A stretch of 56,108 bases of DNA from a virus, in IMG/VR virus record IMGVR_UViG_3300047558_000171, positions 1-56,108 of that record; one strand, written 5' to 3'. Numbering within the stretch: position 1 is the first letter of the stretch; every line of letters begins with the position of its first letter. The notes under the pieces were generated by a model that was given only the letters and a program-made list of their open reading frames with translations, was not told where the DNA came from and made no database searches. Of this stretch, positions 26,281 through 40,612 are shown piece after piece. Made by a program: the position numbers and the translations under genes.

Positions 26281-29200
26281 TTAAACAGAATTAATAGTAA
26301 AAAGCTGTGCTACAGAGTTTGAGATGACTCTATATTTGCTTCTGAATAACCTTAAAATTGATTTGTCATCTACAGTTATTTTAGAAGACCCAACGTAAGC
26401 AGCATAAATATCAGAAGGATCAACACCGTAGAAGTTCTTGCTAGACAAAACCAGCACCTCAAACCATCTAAAGATTCCCTTCCAGTCAACCCAGTCAAAC
26501 TTTATTCTTCCAGATTCTCTAACGCTGAACCATGGCCTTGCAGAAATTCTTTGTACCTGCTGCAGTCTTGACGAATTGTAATAAGATATATTGTTAATCA
26601 TTAGTGGTCCAGTTATTCTTAGGGCACCTCCAATTAAGCTACAATCCAAATAATTTGCAAAACCAATACCAATGGCAGCCCACTGCTTAATAGTAAGCAC
26701 TGGGTCTTTTACAATATTGCCATTAATATAGTATCCAATTCCATTTTCAACCTGTCCAGTCTTGGTGTTGATTGCATATATTTTTCCACGAAGACCATCT
26801 GGATGTGTTGCCTGTAAATAGAATTTTAGATGTAGATTATTAGATACAATCTCAAATATTTCGGTAGGACTATATGGGAAGAAGTCATCGTCATACATTG
26901 CAAAACATTGCATTGCAATAACCCTATAGTTATCTACCTTTTCTTGGTTAATAGCAATTTCTATACCTCTAGACTGTCTACCATTAAATAACCCCTTTAG
27001 CTTTATTCCGCTAGTTTTTGTAAGGTATAAATATGGAGTGCTTCCTTTATAAATGCTAAATGGATTTTTTGACTTATAGTCATAATAGAATCCATTTTCA
27101 GTAAATGGATAAATGTCAATTCCATATTTAGTTCCAATTGGAGTTCTTATATTATTATCCAAAACGACTGAAGATAACTCAAGGCCGTTAATAGCAATTG
27201 GTTTTTCTGATATTTTGTCTACAGACACTACAATTTCTGTATAGATATTAATATTTTCAAATTTTACATTTGCTGGTGGATAAATAATCATATTGTCTAC
27301 TACTTCATATTTTGTATTTACCCATTCTGACCCTGGCTGAATAACCCCATCTCTTGGTGCAGAAATTATATTAGAATAATATTTAGATGAAAAATTATCT
27401 ACAATTGCATTATCCTTAAAGAAAATATATGTTTTAATTATTGACCTAGAAGTATCAAACTTATATGTTTGTCTAGTGTTATGTTGAAGGTCAGTATAGT
27501 CTACATATCCAGTATATAGATGGTTATCTAAATCACTATATCTTTTTTGTGATGGTATTGCAAATTTTAATGACAAATCTTGATAGCTCCATGCTGCATC
27601 AGATTCTGTTATAGCTACTGAGCTTGCAGGAGATGGGTATGAAATGTTAAACTGAATAAAGTCAAGATCGTATGTCTTCTTGCCAGATTGAGTATTTGAG
27701 TATTTTCCAAAATATGATAATGGAATTGACGAAGTCCAGCTTCCATTAACAAATCCATCTAAATATAGTGTGCTTTTATCTGCATATGGAGATACCTTAT
27801 AGCTAGCATAGGATGTTTGAATAAGTCCAGAGTTTGCATGTTGTGCTGGATTTCCTCCATCTAGTAAAAATTCCCAGAATGTAGTACTATACATTCCAGC
27901 ATCATATTCTCCAGTAGCATTCTGAATTGTCTCAGCATCCCAGACTAATCCATTTGGAGCAAAATATTCTGATAATTTTTCTGTAGCATGAAGATTTGAG
28001 AAAGAGACTGAATAAATATTTCCAGAAAATGTATCATTGTTTCCAGTTCCACCAAGATATAAAGATAGGGTCTTGTACTTTGATAAAAATAGAGCAACCT
28101 CGTTTCCAAAGTATTGAGCCATTCGTTTTAGGTGAATTGCAATTGCAAACTGCTCTCCATGTACATAAGCTATTGTTTCAATTAGTGTGGAAGTTTTGCC
28201 AAGAATATTTATAGAATATTTAATGTTTCCATCAAATAATTTTACAGACAAGTAATCTCCAGTAAGCTTGTCTTTTAGTTCTAGGAGAGTTTCTTGCTTT
28301 GTTATATTGGACATTGTCTTATAAACTACATGTAGAGACTCTATTCCATCTGGCAGAATATCTAGATTTTCATAATAGCCATAAGAGTTTTCAGGAAGTT
28401 TAATAAATTTTTCAGTTTCATTTTGAACATTAAGCATTTCTTTTAAAATTGCTTCTTGTGTAGCTGAAGCAGATATTATAGACATACCCTTGTAAGAAGG
28501 AATCTTTAAGTAATCTCCACTGGTGGCAAGGTTATTTGAAAGGCCTTTAGACCATGCCCCAATCTTAGGGTATGAATAATTACTTGAATACTTTGCAAAC
28601 TGATAATCTACTGCAATACTTTTACCACCATATGCAACATTTAGTGATTCTGGATTTTCTACACCTTGACCATAGATCCATCTTCTTTTTGCAATTGTGT
28701 TAGAAACAACATATGTATATATAGAAACAGCATTTATTTCAAATATTGACATTTTAGAATTTGAATATATTCCAATCCAGTCTTGCTCAATGCCATCTAG
28801 GACCTCGTCAGGGAACTGTAAAGAAACATTTGATATAGAAATGGTTCCGACAATCTCTCCATTTACTAATAGGGTTACACTATCTTTAGAAATTGTTATG
28901 TGAACAAGCATTGGCCTGTACCATTCTCCAACATAATGTGATGTGTGCAAATCTCCAATTCTTAGCTTTAAGAAAGGACCATCTACATACAACCCATCAT
29001 CTGAAGCTACTGGACCAACTATCCTAAACTCTGAATCTTGTGAATGATCTACTTTAATCCATGCCTCAAAGGTGTAGTTTCTATTTGCTCCTGATTTGTT
29101 TAAAAACCCTAGTCCAGGAATTACCACAGATGGCTTCCCAGTAGTATTTGGGGATATCTGGAATGAAGCTTCGGACCCATATGTCATAGGAATTCCGTTC

Positions 29201-29943
29201 TTTTTTCCAAGAATATTTGTTCCCTTACAAATTGAATATCCGTCTTTTGTTGATTCTGCAGATGCTAATAGCTTTACCGCTTTTGTATTTGGACCAAGAC
29301 TATAAATATTTTCAATAACCTCTTCTGGAATGATACCAGTAGACGTAGAGTTAAATTCCTCTGACCATTGGCCAAGAGATAGGCCATTAATTAAAAACGA
29401 AACCTCATCAGTTGTATTATTTGATAAAAATTCAATTTCTATAAAAAGTTTAAATTCTGAAGATAGGTTATATGGCCTATCAAAAGTTTCAGATAGAAAT
29501 ACCCACTTATTTCCAAACGGCATTGTAAATCGCTTAGAGACTCTTGCTGTCCCATATGTTGGATCATCATATACAAAGCCAATAGAAACAGATTGGGTGT
29601 TTTCAGCATATGAATATAAGAATGTTGATAGTGTGAATGTAGATAGAAAACTATCTAGTTGCGAGAAATCTGATATTGTATCGCTCAGTACTGTTACAGT
29701 TTTAATGCTTGAAGATCCAAGGTTATGGGTTGATATCTTAAAAACTGATTCTGAAGACATTGGAGCATCTGATGCTGATACTAAGGAAACATCTGTATCA
29801 CTAGAAACCTTTGTCCATCCAGACAAGTCGCTCTTAGTTTTTGAAAGCATAGAAACGTAGTCTGCTTTATCCTGAAGTGGCCAGTGACCTAGTGGATGCT
29901 CACTTAGAATTTTAGATGAATAAAGGCTTAAAGATGTAGTCAT
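26281..29943 (-). CDS. Large tail protein with LamG domain
   Basis: The 1220-residue protein is beta-rich throughout. Residues about 280-415 form a LamG/concanavalin-like domain (NYTFEAWIKVDHSQDSEF, later VHITISKDSVTLLVNGEIVG). A second similar stretch lies near residues 540-660 (ESLHVVYKTM, YLSVKLFDGNIKYSI and GEQFAIAIHLKR). The N-terminus opens with SEHPLGHWPLQD, common at the start of LamG-bearing phage proteins. Such domains bind surface glycans, so I infer a large fibre or side-tail protein. Its location between oxygenase genes and head genes, away from the other tail tip genes, is unusual. No enzymatic motif was found. Confidence 0.65.
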   Translation of the reverse strand: MTTSLSLYSSKILSEHPLGHWPLQDKADYVSMLSKTKSDLSGWTKVSSDTDVSLVSASDAPMSSESVFKISTHNLGSSSIKTVTVLSDTISDFSQLDSFLSTFTLSTFLYSYAENTQSVSIGFVYDDPTYGTARVSKRFTMPFGNKWVFLSETFDRPYNLSSEFKLFIEIEFLSNNTTDEVSFLINGLSLGQWSEEFNSTSTGIIPEEVIENIYSLGPNTKAVKLLASAESTKDGYSICKGTNILGKKNGIPMTYGSEASFQISPNTTGKPSVVIPGLGFLNKSGANRNYTFEAWIKVDHSQDSEFRIVGPVASDDGLYVDGPFLKLRIGDLHTSHYVGEWYRPMLVHITISKDSVTLLVNGEIVGTISISNVSLQFPDEVLDGIEQDWIGIYSNSKMSIFEINAVSIYTYVVSNTIAKRRWIYGQGVENPESLNVAYGGKSIAVDYQFAKYSSNYSYPKIGAWSKGLSNNLATSGDYLKIPSYKGMSIISASATQEAILKEMLNVQNETEKFIKLPENSYGYYENLDILPDGIESLHVVYKTMSNITKQETLLELKDKLTGDYLSVKLFDGNIKYSINILGKTSTLIETIAYVHGEQFAIAIHLKRMAQYFGNEVALFLSKYKTLSLYLGGTGNNDTFSGNIYSVSFSNLHATEKLSEYFAPNGLVWDAETIQNATGEYDAGMYSTTFWEFLLDGGNPAQHANSGLIQTSYASYKVSPYADKSTLYLDGFVNGSWTSSIPLSYFGKYSNTQSGKKTYDLDFIQFNISYPSPASSVAITESDAAWSYQDLSLKFAIPSQKRYSDLDNHLYTGYVDYTDLQHNTRQTYKFDTSRSIIKTYIFFKDNAIVDNFSSKYYSNIISAPRDGVIQPGSEWVNTKYEVVDNMIIYPPANVKFENINIYTEIVVSVDKISEKPIAINGLELSSVVLDNNIRTPIGTKYGIDIYPFTENGFYYDYKSKNPFSIYKGSTPYLYLTKTSGIKLKGLFNGRQSRGIEIAINQEKVDNYRVIAMQCFAMYDDDFFPYSPTEIFEIVSNNLHLKFYLQATHPDGLRGKIYAINTKTGQVENGIGYYINGNIVKDPVLTIKQWAAIGIGFANYLDCSLIGGALRITGPLMINNISYYNSSRLQQVQRISARPWFSVRESGRIKFDWVDWKGIFRWFEVLVLSSKNFYGVDPSDIYAAYVGSSKITVDDKSILRLFRSKYRVISNSVAQLFTINSV

Positions 29944-29958
29944 TGTACATCTATTTTA

Positions 29959-30486
29959 TCATACTATACGTGTAAACCAGCGTGGAGTTGTATACCTAAT
30001 ACCCTCAGAAATTGACTTAACTCCATGTACATAGTCTGGATTATCTGGGAATGTAAGAAGGTCTCCTGGCTCTGGCTTATGAGATATACCATATTCTGGG
30101 AAGTATATATCTCCACCCAAATAGTCATTATTTATATAAATTAATGTTGCAATATCATTTGGTTTGCCAGCATCAAAATGTTCATGCATTCCCCATCCTG
30201 GCTCAAATCTAGCAATATGAGACATCATAGGATCAAATGGCTTAAAATTATCTCCATAGTTTTCAAGAACAAACTCATAAACTTTCATCCCCCACTCTGT
30301 TACTAGTGCACGAATATCATTTGTTTCCTGTGTCATATCTTTAAATACATTTACGGTAAACTCTTTTTCATTGTTACCGTATTCTGTGAACTCTGAATCA
30401 TGCTTTACTGAGTATGCATGAATTTTATCAACTACATCTTTTGGCACAAAACCTTTAATATATTTAATTTGATCTGTCTTATTCAT
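29959..30486 (-). CDS. 2-oxoglutarate/Fe(II)-dependent oxygenase (prolyl-hydroxylase-like)
   Basis: The 175-residue protein has the complete metal and cosubstrate signature of the prolyl 4-hydroxylase type: H103-F-D105 in GMHEHFDAGK, distal H154 in NPDYVHGVKS and R164 in GIRYTTPRWF. Between them lie YLGGDIYFPEYG and PEPGDLLTFP, strands of the double-stranded beta helix. These enzymes use 2-oxoglutarate and oxygen to hydroxylate proteins or nucleic acids. The gene overlaps the 51-residue gene upstream in an ATGA junction. The target is unknown; collagen-like and fibre proteins of the phage are candidates. Confidence 0.85.
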   Translation of the reverse strand: MNKTDQIKYIKGFVPKDVVDKIHAYSVKHDSEFTEYGNNEKEFTVNVFKDMTQETNDIRALVTEWGMKVYEFVLENYGDNFKPFDPMMSHIARFEPGWGMHEHFDAGKPNDIATLIYINNDYLGGDIYFPEYGISHKPEPGDLLTFPDNPDYVHGVKSISEGIRYTTPRWFTRIV

Positions 30487-30638
30487 TTAAATCTACTTTC
30501 ACCGCTGTGTTTTGGCATATTAGAGTCTCCACAAGATAAACAGTCCAATCTAACTATTCCAGTTACTGGACACTTTGTACCTTGAACAACTCTATGCCCT
30601 AGTATAAAACATTTTATTCTGAGGATCCAATTTTTCAT
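30483..30638 (-). CDS. Cysteine-containing 51-residue protein in the oxygenase operon
   Basis: A short gene (51 residues, MKNWILRIKCFILGHRVV...) fills the gap between two oxygenase genes. It is linked on both sides: TAATG overlap with the upstream gene and ATGA overlap with the downstream gene, strong evidence that it is translated. The sequence has cysteines at 10, 23, 33 and 36, with H15 nearby and a final C-L-S-C-G, suggesting a small zinc-binding fold. No family is recognised. Confidence 0.7.
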   Translation of the reverse strand: MKNWILRIKCFILGHRVVQGTKCPVTGIVRLDCLSCGDSNMPKHSGESRFK

Positions 30639-31303
30639 TAGTTAAGCCTTGTCCATGTTTGTGCATCTTCATCACTAATATATGCTCTTGGAGCTACATC
30701 ATATGCTAAAGTAATCCTTGTATCATCCACTCTCCAATTACCCATGCCATGTGGATGCCCTACCTCTGATAAAACCATTCTATTATTTTTATTTACATTA
30801 ACCTTAATATTTTCAGGATTCTTAAATATCTTGTATACAGTTACGGATGGTTCTGCATTTACACAATAATAACCATGAAATACTGGTGCACCAACACCAT
30901 TCATATGTTCGTGCCACTTATCTTCATTATCAATAGGAGAAACATCCCACATGACATCTTTATCATTTCTGTTATACCATCCATGCAGGTACCACTCTTC
31001 AGAATCATAGTCAATACCGTAATAATTACAAGCTTCTAGCAATGCATCATTTATTGCATTTTTTAGAATATTAAGATCTGAATTACCCATTTCAAAAATA
31101 TTATAATGAGATAATAGTGCAGTGCCTGCACCAGAAGCTTGATTTTTATAAATATCAAGAATTTCTTTACTTGCACCTATTTTAAACTTACCAGATCTGA
31201 TCTTATTATCAAGATCAATAGTCCAGTTTAATAGTTTTGAAAGATCTATTGACAGATCTCTGGTGAAGAACTTATGATCTTTAACTATACTAGAGGTATC
31301 CAA
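30638..31303 (-). CDS. 2OG-Fe(II) oxygenase-like protein, paralogue A
   Basis: This is one of three tandem paralogues. Conserved elements are a GWYN strand, WHEHMNGVGAP, HGYYCVNAEPSVTVY, LSEVGHPHGMG and RITLAYD. The HxH, the GYY.V strand, the distal histidine and the R-I-T/S strand fit the 2OG-FeII_Oxy_5-like group common in marine and freshwater phages. The metal ligands would be the HEH histidine(s) and one of the GHPH histidines. There is no ATG near the N-terminus; alignment with the two paralogues supports TTG 31303 as the start. The product is 221 residues and its substrate is unknown. Confidence 0.65.
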   Translation of the reverse strand: MDTSSIVKDHKFFTRDLSIDLSKLLNWTIDLDNKIRSGKFKIGASKEILDIYKNQASGAGTALLSHYNIFEMGNSDLNILKNAINDALLEACNYYGIDYDSEEWYLHGWYNRNDKDVMWDVSPIDNEDKWHEHMNGVGAPVFHGYYCVNAEPSVTVYKIFKNPENIKVNVNKNNRMVLSEVGHPHGMGNWRVDDTRITLAYDVAPRAYISDEDAQTWTRLN

Positions 31304-31962
31304 TGTTGTTCCAATCCAGCATCTCCGTCAGAAATATCATGAATACTTCTGGTATCGTAAGCTATTGTGATTCTACGCTTATCATGGTTACCCCACCATC
31401 CACGTGTATGTGGGTGACCAGTTTCAGAAAGCACTGCTCTGAAGTTTTTATTAATATTTTCAAATGGAGTCACCTTGTCAATTCTATAATGTGTTACAGA
31501 TGGTTCTGCAAATACAGAAAAGTACCCATGCAGATCAGGAATTCCCAATCCACCACAATGTTCGTGAAGATTAGGCTCAATCATTGTTTGTGCATAAAAC
31601 TCTGCATCTCCATGGTCAGCTGGTTCTATATTAATCCAACCTTGAATATAGTATGCTTCTGACTCAAAATCGGTACCGTAGTATTCGCAAGCTTCTTTTG
31701 TCATATCTCTTACAGCACCAAGCAACTTTCTTATTACTGGGTGATGCAATTGAAAAACATTATACTTTCCCAAAGTTCTAGTAGTCATACCGCCTTTTTC
31801 ATAATATGACTTTGCTTCTTCTGAGGCAATTCCTGGAAACTTTCCATCAAGCATATCTTTTTCACGAGCAATGCAAAAATCATACAAATTATCTAGATCT
31901 TCTTGTGTGACATCTAGATATCTTTCAAAAAATTTTTGTGGTGGCTTGTTCATAGAAATCAT
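31285..31962 (-). CDS. 2OG-Fe(II) oxygenase-like protein, paralogue B
   Basis: The middle paralogue has 225 residues from ATG 31962, which overlaps the upstream stop as ATGA; an earlier TTG at 31977 is less likely. It shares KFFERYLD near the start, QGWINIE, LHEHCGGLGIPDLHGYF, AEPSVTHY, LSETGHPH and RRITIAYD with paralogues A and C. It has an insert of about 15 residues before the HEH motif (HGDAEFYAQTM) relative to C. The same metal-binding logic applies as for A. Sequence identity among the three is clear but far from complete, so the duplication is old. Confidence 0.65.
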   Translation of the reverse strand: MISMNKPPQKFFERYLDVTQEDLDNLYDFCIAREKDMLDGKFPGIASEEAKSYYEKGGMTTRTLGKYNVFQLHHPVIRKLLGAVRDMTKEACEYYGTDFESEAYYIQGWINIEPADHGDAEFYAQTMIEPNLHEHCGGLGIPDLHGYFSVFAEPSVTHYRIDKVTPFENINKNFRAVLSETGHPHTRGWWGNHDKRRITIAYDTRSIHDISDGDAGLEQHWIPLV

Positions 31963-32618
31963 CGTAATGGAATCCAATGCTGTTCTTGAGAATATCCTCC
32001 ACGTTTTAGATACTCTAGTGGAGTTACATCATATGCAACAGTAATTCTTGGACCATCCCATGACCAATCACCCATTGCGTGTGGATGTCCCATTTCTGAA
32101 AGAATAGCACGGTTATTTTTATTAATATTTTCAACCTCATTGTCAAAAACAATGTAATGGGTTGATGATGGCTCTGCTGCAACTGAATAATATCCATGGA
32201 AGTCAGGTGCTCCTGGACCACCATGTTCGTGCCAGTTAAGCTTTCCATTTCCAGAGTGATTAATATTAAACCATCCCTGAATCATAAACTTTTGTTCTTC
32301 AAAGTCAATTTCATAGTGATCACAGGCTTCTCTAACCATATCACCAATAGCCTTATATAGCTCATAGATTCCATCAATATGGAATTGGAAAACATTGTAC
32401 TGTCTCCACTTCATTGTTGAGATACTATTAGAATCTTTCCATGCTTCAAAAGGGCTTACTGGTGTCACACCTGGAAGCTTAGCCTGCTCAATCAGCTCAT
32501 ATCTAGACTGTAGCTCTTTTGTCAACACATCTAGATCATTATTAAGGTAACGTTCAAAAAATTTGTGCCCCTGCGTTGTCTTGCTTATGCTTCGTAGGGG
32601 AGTTTGGTCCTTATACAT
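31959..32618 (-). CDS. 2OG-Fe(II) oxygenase-like protein, paralogue C
   Basis: First gene of the tandem set. It contains GHKFFERYL, QGWFNIN, NWHEHGGPGAPDFHGYY, AEPSSTHY, NINKNNRAILSEMGHPH and RITVAYD. Two starts are possible: ATG 32624 lies one base after GGAG, whereas ATG 32618 is seven bases after it and is preferred. A TATAAT box lies about 25 bases further upstream, so this gene probably heads an operon of C, B, A, the 51-residue gene and the prolyl-hydroxylase-like gene. Confidence 0.65.
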   Translation of the reverse strand: MYKDQTPLRSISKTTQGHKFFERYLNNDLDVLTKELQSRYELIEQAKLPGVTPVSPFEAWKDSNSISTMKWRQYNVFQFHIDGIYELYKAIGDMVREACDHYEIDFEEQKFMIQGWFNINHSGNGKLNWHEHGGPGAPDFHGYYSVAAEPSSTHYIVFDNEVENINKNNRAILSEMGHPHAMGDWSWDGPRITVAYDVTPLEYLKRGGYSQEQHWIPLR

Positions 32619-32675
32619 CCTCATACTCCGTTCTATGTATGTATATATTATACACCATAGCAGAGACTTATGTGA

Positions 32676-32870
32676 TTATCTAAAACCAAATACACTAAAT
32701 GTAGGAGTAAATCCAAAGACACTGAATGTTGGAACGAACCCAAATACACCAAAGAATCCAAATACTGAGAATGGCACAAAACCAAATACTCCAAAGGTTG
32801 GCACAAAGCCAAATACACCAAAGAAGCTAAAGACTCCAAAGAAGCTGAATACTGAGAATGGAACAAATGA
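32676..32870 (-). repeat. Array coding for eight F-x-V-F-x-F units
   Basis: Imperfect repeats of 18-27 bases encode FSVFSF, FGVFSF, FGVFGF (three times) and FSVFGF (three times). The last unit is followed by Arg and stop. The same type of array ends another gene at 39482. Confidence 0.85.
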
Positions 32871-33467
32871 GAAGGTTGTTACAGACCCAGATGCAGCTGA
32901 AGTAGCTGAGTTACCATTAGCATTTGTAGCATAAACCTGATAAGTTTGAGCTGTTCCAGCTTCCTGGCCAATATTAATAGTTGTAGATGCTGTGTCTCCA
33001 GCCTTACCGTCGGATGATGTTACGTGATAATTAGTAATTGCCTTACCACCATTATTTACTGGGGCAGTCCAGGTAACAGTATCATATGTAGCTCCAGAAG
33101 GAGATGATGCTGACACTCCAGTTGGAACATCTGGAACAGTTGTGATAGTAATAGCTGCTGATGCAACTGATGCTGATGATGTTCCATATGAGTTTGTAGC
33201 AGTAACAGTAAATGTTGGTGTAGCACCAGATGCAATACCACCAACCACAATTGGAGAAGATGCTCCAGTTGCAGTTTGACCAGTTGATGCAGTAACAGTA
33301 TATGATATTGCTGGTTGTGAATTGGATGGTAGTGAAAACGCTACAGATGCAGCACCATCATTAAATGCTCTACCAGTTCCAACGTCAGTAGCCACAACGC
33401 TAGTTGGTGCCAATGGCTGCAAGAAGTCATTTGCTTGCTGTGAATGCTTTCCAGCTCTTTTACTCAT
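32676..33467 (-). CDS. Fibronectin-type tail protein with C-terminal F-x-V-F-x-F repeats
   Basis: The 263-residue protein has three parts: a basic N-terminus (MSKRAGKHSQQANDFLQPL), two fibronectin/Ig-like domains at about residues 20-110 and 112-195 (second: PDVPTGVSASSPSGATYDTV, later TYQVYATNANGN), and a strongly hydrophobic tail of about 65 residues. The tail contains eight copies of F-x-V-F-[GS]-F, separated by nothing or by VP, VPT or TPT, and ends VFGFR. Fibronectin domains are common in tail fibres. The repeat tail has no counterpart I know; it may form a beta-strand stack or insert in a membrane. AGGAAG precedes ATG 33467. Confidence 0.7.
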   Translation of the reverse strand: MSKRAGKHSQQANDFLQPLAPTSVVATDVGTGRAFNDGAASVAFSLPSNSQPAISYTVTASTGQTATGASSPIVVGGIASGATPTFTVTATNSYGTSSASVASAAITITTVPDVPTGVSASSPSGATYDTVTWTAPVNNGGKAITNYHVTSSDGKAGDTASTTINIGQEAGTAQTYQVYATNANGNSATSAASGSVTTFSFVPFSVFSFFGVFSFFGVFGFVPTFGVFGFVPFSVFGFFGVFGFVPTFSVFGFTPTFSVFGFR

Positions 33468-33493
33468 CTATATACTTCCTATTCTAAATCTAA

Positions 33494-35137
33494 CTATGCT
33501 GACAAGTCGCCATATACTACCCAAGTATCTGTAGCTCTCTTAAATAGAGTTGCAGATGACCACTGAGTACGTAGCTTTAGTCCTGGTGTTGCATTTACAG
33601 TTACACCTGCTGCTCCAGCAATTGTAATCTGTCCTGCTCCAGTTTGAAGAATATCAAATGATGTTCCTACTGGATATGCTACTGAAGCATTTGTTGGAAT
33701 TGTAACTGTAACTCCTGAAGCTGAGTTAACCTCAATAAGCTTATCACGGTCTGTTAGAACAGTAGTATATGCACCTGTTTGCTGGTTAATAGTAGTTAGC
33801 GATGGAACTCCTGCTTTAACCTGAGTACCGTCCGAGAATTCAACTCCGCCTAGTTTAACGGTGTCATATGTTGCTGTTGAGAAATCAACAACGTTGCTCG
33901 TAGGTTCTGAGCCACCAGAGATAAGCTTCCACTTGCCATCTGAGGCATCACGAACAAGACCAGTGTGGAAGTGTCCAGCATTTGCATCTCCATATGCACC
34001 AAAGATACCAATATCTACAATATCTGTATCGTACTGTGTTGATGATAGGTAGATTAGTGAGTCTGTAAGCTCTAGGTTTGCAGATGATACAGTTGTAGTT
34101 GTACCGTTTACAGTTAGATTACCTGAAATTGTAAGGTTTTCTGCTGTAGCATTTCCAGTAAGTGCTGGTGCTGCTAGAGGGGCCTTAGCTGCAAGAGCAG
34201 AGTCAAGCCCAGCGATCTTAGATGTTGCAATTGCAGCTGAACCATTAATGTCAGCATTAACAATTGTTCCATCAGCAATCTTTGCAGATGTTACTGCTCC
34301 ATCAACGATCTTTCCAGTAGCTACTGTATTATCAGTTGGTGTACGTGTATCTGAAAGACGTGAATCATTTGTATAGACTAGGTTGGCAGTATCTGAAATA
34401 CCGTGCACGTTAGTGGTTGCAGAGTTGTGATTAGAAACTGCAGTTGCTACTCCAGATGTAGTAGCAATTGTAGAGTCAGTTGCAATGGTTAGTGTGTTTG
34501 CTGTATCATTATATGTTGCAGTAATACCACCAGAACCAGAAATCATTGATGCTACAGCATCTTGTGCTTTCTCATTTGTAAAATACTGATTTGTTTCAGT
34601 TTGAGGGACTGCATCTGTAGTTAGACCTAGGATTGTTGCATCAACGCCATTAATTCTTGTGTCAATTCCGTCAATTCTTGTGTCAACTCCATCAATTCTG
34701 GTGCTAATAGTGTCATTAGCAGTAGTAATTGCAGAGTTTCTTGCAATAACCTCAGCATCAATAGCTGATTCAATTGCAGTATTTACAATACCATTTGCAT
34801 CAGTAATTGCTGCAGCAATTTCATTAAGAGTATCTAAAGTATTTGGGGCATTGTGAATAAGATTAGCAAGTTGTGTAACAGGAATCTGTGCAGTGCCATC
34901 AAGTGTAGCTACACCATTAGCTGCACCCTTTTCTGTAAGGAGAATATAGTCATCAAGACTTCCACCTAGATCTTCTAGGTTCTTAAAGTATGACAAGTTT
35001 GCCCAGGTAGTGGTGCCATCACCCATCTTAAACTGATTGGTATCAGTTTCAAAACCGATTTCACCAGCTGCTAGTACTGGGTTAGCAGATGTCCACTGCT
35101 CTGCAGTTCCTCTGCGTTGCTGCATTCTTGTTGCCAT
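33494..35137 (-). CDS. Tail fibre protein with Mtd-type N-terminal domain
   Basis: The first 50 residues (MQQRRGTAEQWTSANPVLAA, then GEIGFETDTNQFKMGDGTTT) are the widespread phage fibre attachment motif also seen at the start of Mtd and hyaluronidase-type fibres. A long low-complexity trimeric-fibre region follows, with ISTRIDGVDTRIDGIDTRI heptad-like repeats and a NQYFTNEKAQDAV unit. The C-terminal 95 residues (IPTNASVAYPVGTSFDILQT to WVVYGDLSA) are shared with the 213-residue protein at 39971. The product is 547 residues and has a GGAGGAG ribosome-binding site. It is probably a trimeric side fibre. Confidence 0.75.
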   Translation of the reverse strand: MATRMQQRRGTAEQWTSANPVLAAGEIGFETDTNQFKMGDGTTTWANLSYFKNLEDLGGSLDDYILLTEKGAANGVATLDGTAQIPVTQLANLIHNAPNTLDTLNEIAAAITDANGIVNTAIESAIDAEVIARNSAITTANDTISTRIDGVDTRIDGIDTRINGVDATILGLTTDAVPQTETNQYFTNEKAQDAVASMISGSGGITATYNDTANTLTIATDSTIATTSGVATAVSNHNSATTNVHGISDTANLVYTNDSRLSDTRTPTDNTVATGKIVDGAVTSAKIADGTIVNADINGSAAIATSKIAGLDSALAAKAPLAAPALTGNATAENLTISGNLTVNGTTTTVSSANLELTDSLIYLSSTQYDTDIVDIGIFGAYGDANAGHFHTGLVRDASDGKWKLISGGSEPTSNVVDFSTATYDTVKLGGVEFSDGTQVKAGVPSLTTINQQTGAYTTVLTDRDKLIEVNSASGVTVTIPTNASVAYPVGTSFDILQTGAGQITIAGAAGVTVNATPGLKLRTQWSSATLFKRATDTWVVYGDLSA

Positions 35138-35194
35138 TTATATTCTCCTCCAATAGTGCAATTATGCACCAAATACTTATATTATATCCTATTT

Positions 35195-35656
35195 TTAGTT
35201 AAAATTATCAGTAACTGATCCACCATCAAAAATTAGAGTAAACTCTGTTGATGATGGGCTACCGCCATCAATTCCACTAGACATAGGGCTTGCTGGGATT
35301 GACCCACCTTCACGGAAACTAGTTGTAATTAGTCCATTACCACCAATAGATGTATCGTGAATGTGCTGAGGCACTGTCAACGTATCATCAATGTTGGCTA
35401 CTGTCATCCAACCATTTGTTTCATCATAAATGTTAATTCTTTTTGTTACTGTATCAAACCACATCTTACCTGTGGCTGGACTTTCAGGAGCAGTAGAGGC
35501 AACAGTAATACCAGATGCTTGTGAATTCAAATACCCACGTGTTACTACATGAGTATCATCAGTTGGATCTGATGCCACCACTGGGCCACCAAATACACCA
35601 CCTTCTGCTACCTGAATTCCATGTTTAACCTTGAAATCCTTGTTTACTGTTGCCAT
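35195..35656 (-). CDS. Short fibre-associated protein
   Basis: The 153-residue protein opens ATVNKDFKVKHGIQVAEGG, nearly the same opening as the 438-residue fibre gene upstream (ATVTKDFKIKSGLIVEG), so the two probably bind the same tail site. The middle has the GKMWFDTVTKRINIYD strand common in phage fibre modules, and the C-terminus is glycine/serine-rich. An AGGGAG site precedes ATG 35656. It is likely a small structural subunit of the fibre network; no enzymatic residues are seen. Confidence 0.65.
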   Translation of the reverse strand: MATVNKDFKVKHGIQVAEGGVFGGPVVASDPTDDTHVVTRGYLNSQASGITVASTAPESPATGKMWFDTVTKRINIYDETNGWMTVANIDDTLTVPQHIHDTSIGGNGLITTSFREGGSIPASPMSSGIDGGSPSSTEFTLIFDGGSVTDNFN

Positions 35657-35680
35657 CTACTATACTCCCTTTAAATTATC

Positions 35681-36997
35681 TTAAGCGATAAGTGTTCCTA
35701 CTACTGTAACGATAGAGTTGTTGTTAGCTGTTGTAACAAGCAGTCTTACGTTTCCAGCATTTACATCAGCAGAAATTGTTGATGCTGAACCATTTGTTCC
35801 AACAATTGCATACTCTGTGATAGCAACGTTGTCTGAAGAATCAAGAGTAATCATTACCTTTGAAAGTTCAGTGTGTGATCCATGAGCCACCTTGACTGTA
35901 TATTCAGCTGAACGGTGTGCTGAGTTTGCAAACTGGTGTGCAACTACCTGACTAGCTACAGCAACTGATTGAGTTGCAGCAACCTGAGTTGCAACAGAGT
36001 TAATATCAATCTCTGTAAAGTTTGGAACTACTGCTTCAAGTGCTGACACAGCACGAGCATCGGTAAAGTAGAGGTTGGAGGATCCCTCTTCGATGTCGTT
36101 TGTTGTCAGTGCATTAATTGCGTCACCAATGGTTCCACCAACTGCACTGATTGCCCTCTCAGCAGTGAAATATAGATTAACAGTACCCTCTTCAACATCA
36201 TCTGTAATAAGTGCATTGATAGCAGTTGAAATTGCAGAGTTACGGTCAATCACCTCCTGTCCGACTAATCCAGAAGCATAAGTTTCTGCATTAGTCTGAG
36301 CTGTACTAGCATATCCCTGAGCATTTGAATCTGCTGTAGATAGCTGTGCAGCCATGTCAGTTGCATAGTTTGGATTATCAGCAAGTGCAGCTGCTAGCTC
36401 ATTTAGAGTGTCTAGGAGTGCTGGTGCTGAGTCAACAAGGTTTGCTACTGCTGTGTCTGTGTAACCATTTGCTGATGAAAGTGCTGTAGCAATAGCATTA
36501 TCACGTGCTGCTGCTTCAACGCCAATTGCAATATCTCTAGATGTAGCTTCCGCAGCTACAGCGTTATCAACGTATGGTTGAGTTGCAATTACTTCGTTAT
36601 AGATCTTTGCATAGCCATCTGGCTGCAAAATAATATCTGCACTATTTGTGTTTAGGTAAAGATTGTTGTGACCATATACAGTTAGGTCACTTCCGTTTGC
36701 ATAGACAGAGCTATTACTAGCACCATCATTAAGTGTAACGGTATCTGCTGTTACGTTTCCTACTACGTTACCAGTTAGATCTGCTGTTACAGTACCTGCA
36801 GAAAAATTACCATTACCGTCACGCTTTACGACAGTATTTGGTGTGTTTTGTGAGGTTGCTGTACCACCGATAAGGTTAACGATGTAGTCCTGGTCGTCTT
36901 GCTTCTTAGTAAGTACGTCATAATTGTTGACTGTGGCATTTGCACCTTCAACAATCAGACCAGACTTTATTTTGAAGTCTTTTGTGACTGTTGCCAT
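35681..36997 (-). CDS. Tail fibre protein with NLYFT repeats
   Basis: This 438-residue fibre protein starts with the ATVTKDFKIKSGLIVEG attachment motif. It has an alanine-rich helical stalk (AAEATSRDIAIGVEAAARDN) and two VEEGTVNLYFTAERA / IEEGSSNLYFTDARA units, a motif frequent in T4-like and cyanophage fibres. The C-terminal 90 residues (RSAEYTVKVAHGSHTELSKV to TEYAIVGTNG) form a beta domain shared with the neighbouring 148-residue protein. An AAGGAGAT site precedes ATG 36997. A trimeric receptor-binding fibre is the likely role. Confidence 0.75.
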   Translation of the reverse strand: MATVTKDFKIKSGLIVEGANATVNNYDVLTKKQDDQDYIVNLIGGTATSQNTPNTVVKRDGNGNFSAGTVTADLTGNVVGNVTADTVTLNDGASNSSVYANGSDLTVYGHNNLYLNTNSADIILQPDGYAKIYNEVIATQPYVDNAVAAEATSRDIAIGVEAAARDNAIATALSSANGYTDTAVANLVDSAPALLDTLNELAAALADNPNYATDMAAQLSTADSNAQGYASTAQTNAETYASGLVGQEVIDRNSAISTAINALITDDVEEGTVNLYFTAERAISAVGGTIGDAINALTTNDIEEGSSNLYFTDARAVSALEAVVPNFTEIDINSVATQVAATQSVAVASQVVAHQFANSAHRSAEYTVKVAHGSHTELSKVMITLDSSDNVAITEYAIVGTNGSASTISADVNAGNVRLLVTTANNNSIVTVVGTLIA

Positions 36998-37014
36998 TTC
37001 TTATCTCCTTTTAG

Positions 37015-37461
37015 TTACGCCTTGAGACCCATACGTGCAAAACGTACTGTCACAGGTCGAATCATTGCGTCTGGGGTTACTACTAAATTAACAGTACCTC
37101 CAGAGCGAGAGACGCTAACGGTGCCCATATTCCCATCATTGTCAATTGTTCCATACTCAGTAACGCTAATATCATCAGCATCACATAGTACGGTTAGTTC
37201 TGTTGCATAAAACTTATTGTCACCATTTGTGACTTTTGAAATTGATACTAGATACTTAACCATTCTCCATGTAGTAGCATCAAATGAGTCAATCACAGTT
37301 GATCCTTCGATACCAGTGATTACATTTTCGTTATTTCCAAATGACCCAAGATCTGTTGCTTGTGCAATAGTGGTATCAATTAGTGATGAATAATCACTTT
37401 GAGTTGGTCTATCGCCAGTTTCAAATAGGGTTTTGAGGTTGGTTTCTGCAATTCTAGCCAT
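37015..37461 (-). CDS. Short tail protein sharing the fibre C-terminal domain
   Basis: The 148-residue protein has a short N-terminal helix (NLKTLFETGDRPTQSDYSSL), typical of proteins that dock on baseplates. Its C-terminal domain (WRMVKYLVSISKVTNGDNKF to SVTEYGTI) matches the end of the 438-residue fibre: Y-x-V, long strand, D-x-x-D, then TEY and a G-N-V-x-L-x-V-T strand. It may be a receptor-binding or trimerisation unit. It has no Shine-Dalgarno site; TATAAT ends six bases before ATG 37461, so a leaderless mRNA is likely. Confidence 0.65.
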   Translation of the reverse strand: MARIAETNLKTLFETGDRPTQSDYSSLIDTTIAQATDLGSFGNNENVITGIEGSTVIDSFDATTWRMVKYLVSISKVTNGDNKFYATELTVLCDADDISVTEYGTIDNDGNMGTVSVSRSGGTVNLVVTPDAMIRPVTVRFARMGLKA

Positions 37462-37473
37462 GCTTATATTATA
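37461..37473 (-). promoter_or_regulatory. Leaderless-type -10 box
   Basis: TATAAT (37473-37468) plus six bases leads directly to ATG 37461, with no ribosome-binding site. No good -35 box is visible at 16-18 bases upstream. Confidence 0.6.
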
Positions 37474-37490
37474 CAGTATATTTAAGCATT

Positions 37491-37751
37491 TTAAAGAATG
37501 TAGTTGCTATAACCAATTACAGCTGTACCAATAGGTGCTGCTCTACTTGCATCATAAGTGTCAAACACATCTAAAAATCTTATTCTAAATGGCAAGTTTT
37601 CTATGATATCTATTCTTGATACAAAGTTAGTGTTTTCTGCAGTAATTAAATTCGCTGGTTTTATTGATGCAATTTCTGCAATAGGATTAATTGTTGATCT
37701 AATCATAAAAAGATTAGTTGGATCGTTAGTAATTACTTGAGACTTAGCCAT
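37491..37751 (-). CDS. Small hypothetical tail-region protein
   Basis: An 86-residue protein (MAKSQVITNDPTNLFMIRS...) ending in hydrophobic strands (AAPIGTAVIGYSNYIL). It overlaps the preceding BppU-like gene by one base (TAATG) and so is translated with it. No domain is recognised. Its place between two putative baseplate accessory genes suggests a structural or assembly role. Confidence 0.65.
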   Translation of the reverse strand: MAKSQVITNDPTNLFMIRSTINPIAEIASIKPANLITAENTNFVSRIDIIENLPFRIRFLDVFDTYDASRAAPIGTAVIGYSNYIL

Positions 37752-38152
37752 TATTTGTCAGTTACCTCTGCGATTACTGTCATAATTCCACGGCATACCG
37801 TCCAAACTACGACAGCATCAGAGAGCTGAACGTCAAAAATATCATTTGTCTGAAGAAGCTTAGATTGAGCTGGTAATAGCTTAACGGTAAATTCACCTGC
37901 ATTGTCAAATTCTGTTTGCTCAGGTGTTACATGGAATAGCTTCTCTGTTCCACGTCTAAAGTCTGCCTTTATTGAATATGCAGTTGGATCTACTGGAACA
38001 CCCTGATCATTTTCAATATAACATCTGAATGAAGCGTAGTCACCCTTGACTAGTGTCCATCTAATAATTGGCGGAGTTGCACCAACCTCAATCTCACCTG
38101 CAGCATTGACTGCTTGAGTTGAAGTAGTTGTAGTTGTACGAAGAACAGCCAT
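37751..38152 (-). CDS. BppU-like baseplate/fibre adaptor
   Basis: The 133-residue protein contains IIRWTLVKGDYASFRCYIEN, a FDNAGEFTVKLLPAQSKLL stretch and the closing strand VQLSDAVVVWTVCRGIMTVI. This order (W-x-x-x-x-G-D, an Ig-like sandwich, then I.L....T..L, a D-V-Q-L strand and a final G.I.V strand) resembles the N-terminal domain of BppU, which attaches receptor-binding proteins to baseplates. Two other genes in the block (41708 and 42873) share it. It has no Shine-Dalgarno site; TATAAT ends six bases before ATG 38152. Confidence 0.6.
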   Translation of the reverse strand: MAVLRTTTTTSTQAVNAAGEIEVGATPPIIRWTLVKGDYASFRCYIENDQGVPVDPTAYSIKADFRRGTEKLFHVTPEQTEFDNAGEFTVKLLPAQSKLLQTNDIFDVQLSDAVVVWTVCRGIMTVIAEVTDK

Positions 38153-38164
38153 AGTTTTATTATA
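38152..38164 (-). promoter_or_regulatory. Leaderless-type -10 box
   Basis: TATAAT (38164-38159) is separated by six bases from ATG 38152. No ribosome-binding site is present. Confidence 0.6.
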
Positions 38165-38171
38165 TCATTAA

Positions 38172-38684
38172 TTATGAAAGACCAGCTTTAAGCGATCCCC
38201 AGGTTGAATTTGACTTAGCACCAACTATTATTGAACCAGCTGTTGCTGGCTTTACAACTGTTGCTATTGCAGTTCCCTGTGTTCCATCAACATTTGCAGT
38301 CAATCCACCATTTTGAGCTAAATACAATGTTTGTCCTGCTGTAAAAGATGAAGTATTTACATCATTAATTACTCCAGCAACTACAACAACTCCAGTTCCA
38401 GAAACAGCAATTTCTGTTCGTGTTAGCCCAAGAATTGATGTTGTTGATGCTGCTGTAGCTTTTGCTATTTGAACATTTGTTCCATCATGACCAGTAATTG
38501 TTACTGGATATCCTGCTGGAATAACCTCAGTAGATGAATTCTTTGCTGGAATATCAACATATGAAGCTTGTGGAAGGATTGCGTCAAGTCTTTCAGTTAG
38601 ACTTTTAATATCACCATGTACGTTAACAGCATCTACCGCCAATGGGAATGGTAGGCTATAATTTGTTGATCTTCCAGTTGCCAT
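38172..38684 (-). CDS. Beta-rich tail-region structural protein
   Basis: The 170-residue protein opens STNYSLPFPLAVDAVNVHGD, a motif found at the start of phage fibre or baseplate subunits. The rest is a regular beta structure (PAGYPVTITGHDGTNVQIAK, then SILGLTRTEIAVSGTGVVVV and SSFTAGQTLYLAQNGGLTAN), resembling DUF2190-like decoration or trimer-forming domains. TATACT ends six bases before ATG 38684 and no ribosome-binding site is visible. It is the last minus-strand gene before the plus-strand lysin gene. Confidence 0.6.
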   Translation of the reverse strand: MATGRSTNYSLPFPLAVDAVNVHGDIKSLTERLDAILPQASYVDIPAKNSSTEVIPAGYPVTITGHDGTNVQIAKATAASTTSILGLTRTEIAVSGTGVVVVAGVINDVNTSSFTAGQTLYLAQNGGLTANVDGTQGTAIATVVKPATAGSIIVGAKSNSTWGSLKAGLS

Positions 38685-38696
38685 GATAATAGTATA
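38684..38696 (-). promoter_or_regulatory. Leaderless-type -10 box, back to back with the lysin promoter
   Basis: TATACT (38696-38691) is six bases before ATG 38684. The divergent lysin promoter starts at 38708, so both lie within 60 bases and could compete. Confidence 0.55.
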
Positions 38697-38707
38697 CCAG
38701 ATTTGTG

Positions 38708-38736
38708 TTGAAAAATAGTTTAAAACATGTTATAAT
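38708..38736 (+). promoter_or_regulatory. Promoter of the NlpC/P60 lysin gene
   Basis: TTGAAA (38708-38713), a 17-base spacer and a perfect TATAAT (38731-38736) form a sigma-70-type promoter. Transcription would begin near 38743 and make a leader of about 177 bases. It lacks the TGTC[AT]GA box seen in plus-strand promoters further right. Confidence 0.75.
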
Positions 38737-38742
38737 CGAATG

Positions 38743-38919
38743 GTACCTTTCGGGGTACTTTTTGTTCATATAGGCAAAAATGATCAAGCAGAGTGACAAC
38801 AACGTGACAATCGTGAGAGACTATAGACAAGTATATTCAAGGCTATCGCTGTAAAGAATATTGTCTGCCAGGACCAGTGACAGGGGTCGTAACAACATAA
38901 AAAATAAGGAGGTAGTCTT
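38743..38919 (+). ncRNA. Structured 5' leader of the lysin mRNA (possible regulatory RNA)
   Basis: The 177-base leader carries several predicted helices. The first is GTACC/GGTAC with a TTTCGG loop followed by five T at 38743-38763. The second is AGACA-(3-base bulge)-ATATTC at 38825-38838 paired with GAATAT-TGTCT at 38856-38866. The third is GACC/GGTC near 38872-38888. A strong AAGGAGG then precedes the ATG. No other gene in the window has such a long leader. In Actinobacteria cell-wall hydrolase genes are often riboswitch-controlled, but I do not recognise the ydaO/c-di-AMP or any other known class here. Confidence 0.55.
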
Positions 38920-39489
38920 ATGAAGACTATTAAATCGACTAGTATTGCTGCAACCACATTATTAATACTTACATCATCTGTAACCCCAGCAAATGCAGAT
39001 TCCATATCCAAAATTGATGGAAGCACTGCAACTTCAATTCAGCTATCTGAGACTGAAAATAAAATATCTATTGAAGAAACAATCAGACTATTACAATATA
39101 AGAAAAATACTGACCTAGTTAATGCCAATATTAAAAAACTCAGATCATATGTTGGAAAAACCTGGTATGTATTCTCTGGTGCTACCCCGTCTGGTTGGGA
39201 CTGCTCAGGATTAACTATGTGGTTTTACGAACAACTTGGAATAGAGTTGGAACACAGAGCAACAGTTCAGGCACTTGGTGGAGAAAAGGTTTTTGATCCA
39301 AAGCCTGGCGACATTGTAGCTTTTCACTATGAAAATAGTAAAAAGGCATACCACGTTGGAATTTATATTGGTGATGGGTTGATGATCCATTCTCCTGCTC
39401 CAGGAAAGTCAACATCAATTGATAATGTAGTCAGATTTGGTGGAAACTATAGCGATATCTCGTATATAAGATATATTGAGACTATCTAA
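38920..39489 (+). CDS. Exported NlpC/P60 peptidoglycan hydrolase (endolysin candidate)
   Basis: The 189-residue protein has a signal peptide (basic MKTIK start, hydrophobic ATTLLILTSSV, cleavage after Ala24-Asn-Ala26). The NlpC/P60 domain begins near residue 72 (LRSYVGKTWYVFSGATPSGW). The catalytic residues are Cys95 in WDCSGLT, His145 in AYHVGIYIG and His157 in LMIHSPA. These enzymes cleave D-Glu-diaminopimelate or related peptide bonds. The signal peptide implies holin-independent export. It is the only plus-strand gene within 40 kb of minus-strand genes and has AAGGAGG before the ATG. It could be a lysin or a host-derived wall-remodelling enzyme. Confidence 0.88.
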   Translation: MKTIKSTSIAATTLLILTSSVTPANADSISKIDGSTATSIQLSETENKISIEETIRLLQYKKNTDLVNANIKKLRSYVGKTWYVFSGATPSGWDCSGLTMWFYEQLGIELEHRATVQALGGEKVFDPKPGDIVAFHYENSKKAYHVGIYIGDGLMIHSPAPGKSTSIDNVVRFGGNYSDISYIRYIETI

Positions 39490-39725
39490 AACCAAAGACT
39501 GCAAATGTTGGTGTAAAACCAAACACTGAGAATGCAAACCCAAACACTGAGAATGGTGTAAATCCAAACACTGAGAATGCAAACCCAAATACGCTGAATG
39601 GTGTAAAGCTAAACACATTGAATGGTGTAAAGCTAAATACGTTAAATGTAGGAGTAAATCCAAAAACACCAAATGTAGGGGTAAATCCAAAAACTCCAAA
39701 TGGAGTAAAGTTAAATACTCCATAT
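39482..39725 (-). repeat. Array coding for ten F-x-V-F-x-F units
   Basis: Units of 21-27 bases encode YGVFNF, FGVFGF (2), FNVFSF (2), FSVFGF (4) and FAVFGF. The spacers are TP, TPT and A. Some 21- and 24-base units are almost identical to each other, as expected from recent unequal recombination. Confidence 0.85.
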
Positions 39726-39961
39726 GAAATATCTATAGATGACTCGTACTGAGCAAGAGTTCCAGCTGATGGTGTTTGGGAGACAATCTTATCATTCTTA
39801 TCTGCATCAGCTGCATTTGTATAATTTTGAGCAGTTTCAGTTCCTACAATAAAGCCATCAGAAACGATCTGTGTCTTAGCATTTGCACGAGTCTGTCCTA
39901 CAAGGTTTGAAACTGATTTCATACCCTTGGAAGATGCCCATAACCCAAAAGAACCTAGCAT
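39482..39961 (-). CDS. PASTA-domain protein with C-terminal F-x-V-F-x-F repeats
   Basis: The 159-residue protein has a PASTA domain at about residues 15-80: VSNLVGQTRANAKTQIVSDG, then IVSQTPSAGTLAQYESSIDI. PASTA domains bind peptidoglycan fragments and beta-lactam-like ligands. The last 80 residues hold ten copies of [FY]-x-V-F-x-F, joined by TP, TPT or A, ending VFGFR exactly as in the 263-residue protein at 32676. Its stop codon overlaps the end of the convergent lysin gene by 8 bases. AGGTAG precedes ATG 39961. A wall-contacting tail protein is a fair guess; the tail function is unknown. Confidence 0.7.
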   Translation of the reverse strand: MLGSFGLWASSKGMKSVSNLVGQTRANAKTQIVSDGFIVGTETAQNYTNAADADKNDKIVSQTPSAGTLAQYESSIDISYGVFNFTPFGVFGFTPTFGVFGFTPTFNVFSFTPFNVFSFTPFSVFGFAFSVFGFTPFSVFGFAFSVFGFTPTFAVFGFR

Positions 39962-39970
39962 CTACTCTAC

Positions 39971-40612
39971 CTAAGCCGTCAAATCACCAATTAAGAGCCA
40001 TTCATTGGTTGCAATTTTTGTAAGAACCGCACCTGAATACCTTGTAGCAATTTTTCTATTTCCATTTTTACTATTTAGAGTTACATTTCCGCTAATTGGA
40101 GCAATAGAAACTCCTCCAGTACCGTAACGAATTATCTCAACTTTTTGACCAACTTTAAATGAATTAGAAGCATTTTCTGGAATATAAATTGTAGTGTCTG
40201 TTGACTCAGAAACCTTAAGACTATTTCCTGCATCTGATGCAACTAGGGTATATGCATTTGCTGTAATTGATGCATTCTTTAAAATTGCAGCATCATTTGA
40301 TGATCTCCAACTTGTTCCATCATAGAACTGAATATCATTGATTGTAGAGCCGTCAGAGGCCTGTGCAACGAATGCTACAAGTCCAGTAATAGGAGAAGGC
40401 AGGGCAGCATCTCTAGCAGATGGGTTCAGATAATTATTAATTCCAGCCTTATTTTTAACTACTGCATCGAATGTTACAGTTGTCTGAAAATTATGTGTTC
40501 CAGCCCATGTATAATCTGCTGATGGGTTTACTCCACCTGCAGCCTGAATTGGTCTCCAGCTTGAACCATCATATAGATAAGCTACCTTTGAGTCTGTACT
40601 AATTGTTGCCAT
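39971..40612 (-). CDS. Tail protein sharing a C-terminal domain with the Mtd-type fibre
   Basis: The 213-residue protein has two short WxxI/YDGTSW strand units (YLYDGSSWRPI and IQFYDGTSWRSS), common in fibre proteins. Its C-terminal 95 residues (NAYTLVASDAGNSLKVSEST, IYIPENASNSFKVGQKVEII, then GDLTA) match the end of the 547-residue fibre at 33494, including V..D....I.V, T..IP.NAS and the closing W...GDL[ST]A. The domain probably ends a trimeric fibre. There is little Shine-Dalgarno signal before ATG 40612, so translation may be coupled to the upstream gene four bases away. Confidence 0.65.
   Translation of the reverse strand: MATISTDSKVAYLYDGSSWRPIQAAGGVNPSADYTWAGTHNFQTTVTFDAVVKNKAGINNYLNPSARDAALPSPITGLVAFVAQASDGSTINDIQFYDGTSWRSSNDAAILKNASITANAYTLVASDAGNSLKVSESTDTTIYIPENASNSFKVGQKVEIIRYGTGGVSIAPISGNVTLNSKNGNRKIATRYSGAVLTKIATNEWLLIGDLTA

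Follow-up and report, generated by a model that had tools for sequence, protein, structure and literature searches.

The closest parallels in composition to the protein tails reported here are found in the FG-nucleoporins (FG, GLFG and FxFG repeats), uncharged low-complexity chains in which regularly spaced phenylalanines are separated by G, S, T, N or P spacers, and in which the motif varies and the composition stays steady. These FG domains are described as cohesive (PMC8938434, PMC9630130). A similar composition was observed in the C-terminal tails of two proteins encoded by a virus record of 56,108 nucleotides (IMG/VR record IMGVR_UViG_3300047558_000171, analysed over its whole length and called the window hereafter): one protein contains a fibronectin type III (fn3) domain, the other a PASTA domain, and both end in an array of F-x-V-F-x-F units. 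Unlike the FG-nucleoporins, the phage tails, which show no sequence relation to them, occupy a fixed C-terminal place after the PASTA or fn3 domain, where a Hint domain often follows. In the low-complexity regions of prokaryotes and phages, aromatic residues are reported to be heavily under-represented (PMC6821194).

The domains that accompany the tails have known counterparts. The cap found in many relatives of the window proteins resembles bacterial intein-like (BIL) and hedgehog autoprocessing domains in its Hint fold and in having Cys or Ser as first residue; unlike in Hint/BIL proteins, an aromatic array precedes it, several relatives are devoid of the histidine or the terminal Asn, and the window proteins do not have the domain at all. 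Like the phage structural proteins with Ig-like or fn3 adhesin domains, among them the Ig-like adhesins of gut phages (PMC13370021), a fibre-region protein here displays fn3-type domains, but they head a conserved aromatic tail. The PASTA protein of the window scores above the Pfam PASTA cut-off, as do proteins of the PknB/PBP type; in contrast to these, it is a stand-alone protein, encoded beside a fibre gene, without kinase or transpeptidase part.

No description of such aromatic tails was found in the open-access papers and the phage records searched, in agreement with the initial annotation of this DNA, which knew of no characterised protein of this kind. A word search of PMC6802176 did not find PASTA, fibronectin, phenylalanine or intein. 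When 50,697 phage records were searched by tblastn with the array proteins P0002 and P0001 and with one fn3-array-Hint protein, no match was obtained; due to the low-complexity masking of BLAST, the searches with P0002 and P0001 mainly test the N-terminal domains. Against PDB sequences, P0002 gave nothing significant (best E 0.11), and its matches up to E 5 included no nucleoporin, low-complexity sequence being a poor test in this respect. In PHROGs, P0001 had no family and P0002 a weak family only (E 0.39). Within the literature and records searched, the tail module is without a described relative, and its PASTA, fn3 and Hint parts belong to known families.

Matching tails on two unrelated proteins

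As first proposed from the DNA alone, two unrelated N-terminal domains bear the same tail. The gathering cut-offs of Pfam were passed by the fn3 protein for PF00041 (25.7 bits against 25) and by the PASTA protein for PF03793 (27.8 bits against 23.2), and F-x-V-F-x-F arrays follow in both. Both open reading frames (ORFs) were found at the annotated places and both close with VFGFR-stop, arginine and the stop codon coming directly after the array, with no Hint domain in either protein. The PASTA gene extends to 39961, past position 39725, at which the initial annotation stopped. The eight units of the fn3 protein are strict ones; in the PASTA protein nine are strict, and the announced ten are reached only with a degenerate first unit. 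A phenylalanine content of at least one third was recovered for the arrays (41% and 38%) and not for the whole proteins.

The pairing of the two tails within one phage was examined in 43 records, in which a second tailed protein was readable beside the fn3 protein. Two sets of 40 related records were used, the first of which had been picked for F-x-V-F-x-F. The PASTA profile matched in 46 records (32 + 14), and 42 of these entered the test. The others were left out as the fn3 gene was cut off (G007), the hit was another protein (G052) or the record was a near-copy of another one (G021 of G030, G076 of G073). G049, whose partner has no PASTA domain, was added after detection with an FFP pattern, which favours a match. 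The partners in G058, G070, G071 and G077 are longer proteins with several domains.

When the second tail was aromatic, it always showed the same unit type as the fn3 tail of the same phage (33/33 records; 32/32 without G049). The mean of the shuffled pairings was 17.05, and none of 20,000 shuffles reached the observed 33. By parsimony, the tree needs five switches of type, which coincide in the two proteins. This joint switching suggests that the two tails must match for their job. The finer make-up of the arrays also paired own with own in the 23 F-x-V-F-x-F records (cosine 0.619 vs 0.467) and in a subset of 14 such genomes (0.66 vs 0.475), with no shuffle as high in either case; the own partner ranked first in just 6 of the 23. 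In addition, the end class (Hint, FR-stop, APWG-stop or Cys-rich) was alike in 36/43 pairs and nearly alike in two more, the five discordant pairs being those of G019, G020, G027, G030 and G048.

The silent positions of the repeats were compared in 18 records. Third-position identity between PASTA and fn3 units was 0.478 within the same genome and 0.425 between different genomes. Since the silent sites of matched arrays differ almost as much as those of unmatched ones, the matching persists long after any exchange, and it is not merely the product of recent copying. G025 departs from this picture: its PASTA array (near 63744-63920) and its fn3 array (near 54906-55058) are almost the same in DNA (third-position identity 0.938), and the two genes have probably exchanged DNA recently in this phage. 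The exchange between genes initially envisaged was thus clear in one of the 18 records; elsewhere the likeness is little above that of different genomes.

A retained composition under a changing motif

The conservation of the tail was assessed on fn3 homologues fetched by their fn3 motifs alone, without the array, and thus free of the choice made for the first set. Among the best 80 of 525 relatives (70 distinct tails), all 80 ended in an aromatic tandem repeat, the unit being F-x-V-F-x-F, GAF, FFPP, YSFTP, FGFTP, GAFGFTP or NFYN according to the clade; types were assigned by custom regular expressions. The aromatic fraction was 0.37 in the tails (coefficient of variation 0.2) and 0.064 in the N-terminal parts. 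Phenylalanine or tyrosine accounted for 28-50% of tail residues, a density that appears much above that of nucleoporin repeats. Charged residues were near zero in the homologous tails. By contrast, tail hydropathy spanned -1.1 to +1.8 and type means for proline went from 0 to 0.41. Across a tree built from the N-terminal parts of 97 fn3 sequences, the unit type changed at least 23 times, the minimum possible being 6; the tree was a quick one, in which 31 of the 91 inner branches had good support. The property that is kept is the presence of aromatic stickers without charge, and neither a beta pattern nor hydrophobicity.

In the PASTA-protein genes of G020, G026, G033, G034, G037 and G039 (L206, L208, L212, L213, L214 and L215), codon-phased tandem repeats of VTP, QNT, PTP, INT or PPV type replace the F-array and sit between Cys-rich modules. 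The whole repeat type therefore turns over between clades.

The unit pattern occurred 19 times in the window, against 4 times for a reversed control pattern. Ten sister phages (45 pairs) were used to calculate the ratio of nonsynonymous to synonymous polymorphism (pN/pS). It was lower in the array than in the N-terminal part of both the PASTA protein (0.24 and 0.36) and the fn3 protein (0.21 and 0.35). Judged by their reading frame and these ratios, the arrays are translated, and purifying selection acts on them. An untranslated repeat, foreseen initially as out of frame or unconserved in homologues, is not what was found, and reading frame, purifying selection and homologues ruled out a chance or untranslated repeat.

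Over 397 units from 22 records, every Phe and Val codon was in use, and the third residue was Val in all 397, although the search pattern permitted Ile. Periods of 6, 7, 8 and 9 were intermixed, with linkers of 0-3 residues, of which the S-P or T-P ones are turn-like. The DNA repeats, initially called nearly identical within a gene, proved only partly alike: Tandem Repeats Finder gave 73-93% matches for the window arrays, and adjacent units with the same peptide had a third-position identity of 0.667 (18 phage records). Expansion and contraction were borne out by the PASTA proteins of G008 and L023, which have identical N-termini with 16 and 10 units, respectively. Array length was equal in 16 of 27 pairs with 90-97% identical N-termini.

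Two repeat patterns run on viral contigs returned 30 and at least 120 stretches. The 98 distinct array ORFs obtained were pooled with those of the fetched records, and N-terminal blastp divided the pool into an fn3-type family (57), a PASTA-type family (39) and the outlier L046. In prokaryote species genomes (257 billion bases), searched with one pattern of 8-residue period only, 11 stretches and no array were found, the stretches being short F-rich frames or single chance matches within longer frames. A bacterial origin of the array was rejected on this result, obtained with the one pattern tried in cells.

Gene neighbourhood, fibre link and end cap

A virion location of the tails is inferred from the place of the genes and from fusions. 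A homologue of the 213-aa fibre-like gene of the window adjoins the PASTA gene in 15/15 other records examined. Its identity with the tailed proteins of G049, G071 and G077 is 41-46% in their N-terminal part, and with the L046 protein 34% over 92 amino acids, as measured from the 213-aa protein of the window. A fibre domain is thus fused in cis to an aromatic tail in G049, G071 and G077, and partly in L046, and these fusions are the chief reason to place the tails on the virion. The fibre-like L046 protein (L046:6926-8731, minus strand) has long linkers of PTPTPT type and Cys-rich modules, ends in a short F-x-V-F-x-F array and is the third kind of protein to carry the tail. Because the frame is open upstream of the PASTA start in some relatives, a frame-shift that joins the fibre gene to the PASTA gene was also considered; in the window, a stop codon comes directly before the PASTA start.

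By tail length alone, a further domain follows the array in 51 of the best 80 of 525 fn3 relatives, an overcount, as some long tails end Cys-rich. A profile of 33 post-array tails matched the bacterial intein-like domain 2lwy of the PDB (E 2.3e-8). The predicted structure, with a predicted local distance difference test (pLDDT) value of 90.6, was compared by VIA-align with the Mtu RecA intein (2in0) and gave a Z of 16.4 and a root-mean-square deviation of 2.2 for 134 aligned residues. Cys19 of the model superposes on intein residue 1, and the Hint alignment always begins with Cys or Ser at its first position. By profile match and model, a Hint fold follows the array in many relatives, and the clade of the window ends in Arg instead.

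Structural genes of a tailed phage form a module on the minus strand of the window (portal, head maturation protease, capsid, tape measure, minor tail proteins), and both array genes lie within a tail-fibre-like block upstream of the portal gene. The head maturation protease is 41-43% identical, over nearly its full length, to those of the 20 best phage records, all of them from Streptomyces phages. In the one Streptomyces phage record that was opened, Belfort (Stanwilliamsviridae), portal, protease, capsid and tape measure are in the same order as in the window. By these related head genes and this gene order, the window phage is Stanwilliamsviridae-like. The head protease of the window is present in 37/40 records of the first set and in 27/40 of the second, in which many other members are short fragments. 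A WhiB gene has been suggested as a key indicator of actinophages in PMC10202952, which also describes cultures of Ca. Planktophila; WhiB scored above the cut-off in 13/40 records of the first set, and not in the window record itself. The phage is a member of a large uncultured lineage of freshwater viruses, the hosts of which are probably actinobacteria.

Other genes of the block are listed in Table 1. The 547-aa Mtd_N (major tropism determinant N-terminal) protein is a candidate receptor-binding protein. The NlpC/P60 gene and the PASTA gene overlap by 8 bases at their ends. Within the run that separates the fn3 gene from the gene of the 1220-aa protein, one gene has a Pfam 2OG-Fe(II) oxygenase match, and three genes of about 221-230 aa are alike by eye, without Pfam family.

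Table 1. Array genes of the window and neighbouring features (aa, amino acids)
Feature	Position	Strand	Evidence
1220-aa protein, upstream of portal region	26281-29943	-	No PHROGs or Pfam match
Gene run between fn3 gene and 1220-aa gene	29959-32624	-	
fn3-type protein, 263 aa, ends VFGFR-stop	32676..33467	-	ORF; Pfam fn3; N-terminal blastp family of 57 array proteins
F-x-V-F-x-F array of fn3 protein, residues 204-262 (59 residues), 8 strict units, 41% Phe, 0 charged residues	32682..32858	-	
Fibronectin type III domain, residues 114-192	32892..33128	-	Pfam PF00041, E 1.4e-5
Mtd_N-domain protein, 547 aa, tail-fibre-like, between the two array genes	33494..35137	-	Pfam Mtd_N, E 1.5e-14; PHROGs minor tail and tail fiber families
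NlpC/P60 protein, signal-peptide-like N-terminus, inserted between fibre genes on the opposite strand	38920-39489	+	
PASTA-type protein, 159 aa, ends VFGFR-stop	39482..39961	-	ORF; Pfam PASTA
F-x-V-F-x-F array of PASTA protein, residues 88-158 (71 residues), 9 strict units, 38% Phe, 0 charged residues	39488..39700	-	
PASTA domain, residues 17-78	39728..39913	-	Pfam PF03793, E 2.5e-6; AlphaFold2 pLDDT 83-95 over residues 11-80
Fibre-like protein, 213 aa, directly upstream of PASTA gene	39971..40612	-	

Proposed cohesion and competing explanations

Our preferred explanation, to which we give a probability of roughly 0.45, is that the module is a cohesive sticker-and-spacer tail by which two fibre-region proteins co-assemble. 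The arrays would be the form that a cohesive module at the C-terminus takes in one clade, an uncharged chain of low complexity with aromatic stickers and small, polar or proline spacers. Such tails may bind one another by aromatic contacts, like FG-nucleoporin repeats, and on the virion this binding would join the PASTA protein and the fn3 protein, together with the fused fibre protein where there is one, into a single cohesive bundle or brush. Turned towards the cell wall of the actinobacterial host would then be the PASTA domain, which is of a peptidoglycan-binding kind, and the fn3 domains, which are of a surface-binding kind. In the relatives, self-cleavage of a Hint domain that still works would make the array the mature C-terminus, an end state that the clade of the window may reach by terminating in Arg.

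Several observations weigh against this explanation. The partner tail is non-aromatic in 10/43 pairs (VTP, QNT, INT, PTP, VVPP, TTAA, TTP or PPP repeats), and the matching is therefore not obligatory. The 33 matched pairs are related, and parsimony reduces them to just five switches. The PASTA partner was not found in 8/40 records of the first set and in 26/40 of the second, some of the partnerless records being long (G017, 118 kb; G024, 100 kb). Several Hint domains are without the block-B histidine or the final Asn, which makes self-cleavage doubtful for them, and in clades such as G016 and G025 the identity between both Hint domains of a phage is as low as 37-39%. Finally, the likeness to FG-nucleoporins is one of composition only and is not taken as a family tie.

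A bolder version of the cohesive tail, which we hold to be doubtful, is a matching code of aromatic repeats. The same repeat would sort at least two unrelated fibre-region proteins into one cohesive, FG-like phase of the virion, joint switching of the repeat would separate the assemblies from those of co-infecting relatives, and an intein-like cap shed in many lineages would expose the sticky tail.

Of the competing explanations, a shared docking tail comes first, although we consider it unlikely. Both arrays would bind one third phage protein instead of each other; its binding surface would dictate the unit type, and the two proteins would sit next to each other on the tail or head. The match of unit type and end class within a genome is equally expected from such docking, and the short fixed ends, VFGFR and FAPWG, resemble a specific terminus. 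However, no conserved partner was found, and wholesale changes of the motif, to FFPP, NFYN or GAF, would demand a receptor that is altered each time.

Repeat drift, the second in this order, is rather improbable. In this case the tails would be spacers, or tolerated microsatellite-like repeats without a binding role, and their matching would result from recombination that copies them between the two genes. The fast turnover of the repeats, the VTP, QNT, INT and PTP repeats at the same site of the PASTA protein in other clades and the recent exchange in G025 are all consistent with it. On the other hand, the pN/pS of the arrays is below that of the folded parts, the tail is aromatic in every fn3 homologue fetched without the array, and the silent sites of matched arrays are nearly as different as those of unmatched ones.

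The initial annotation had suggested an ordered structure, in which the alternating pattern builds a flat beta stack or a fibre with phenylalanine ladders; a beta-solenoid or an amyloid-like fibre can be added to this group, which we regard as quite improbable. The alternation of F-x-V-F-x-F and the turn-like linkers speak for it. Nevertheless, the F-x-V-F-x-F spacing is not the conserved property, because sister clades hold FFPPFFP, NFYNFYN, GAFGAF or YSFTP repeats in the same place. Homologous tails of the FFPPFFP kind, with proline at every second or third place, and of the NFYN kind fit poorly with a specific beta architecture, as do the mixed periods. In addition, AlphaFold2 left the array of the PASTA protein without structure (pLDDT about 30), which is weak evidence. 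A membrane-active segment, also raised initially, by which the hydrophobic tail would enter the host membrane during DNA entry or lysis, is very improbable: the window-type arrays are uncharged and hydrophobic (mean Kyte-Doolittle value of FxVFxF 1.21), but NFYN tails are hydrophilic (-0.98) and YSFTP (0.46) and FFPP (0.65) tails near neutral, with an equal or higher aromatic content.

A large phage lineage thus retains chains with 28-50% of aromatic residues, repeatedly alters their motif and keeps it matched between two unrelated proteins. Should the tails be cohesive, they would be a prokaryotic-virus counterpart of FG-repeat cohesion and a natural set of separate sticky tags, and they would offer a testable account of the way in which the adsorption apparatus of uncultured freshwater phages is assembled.

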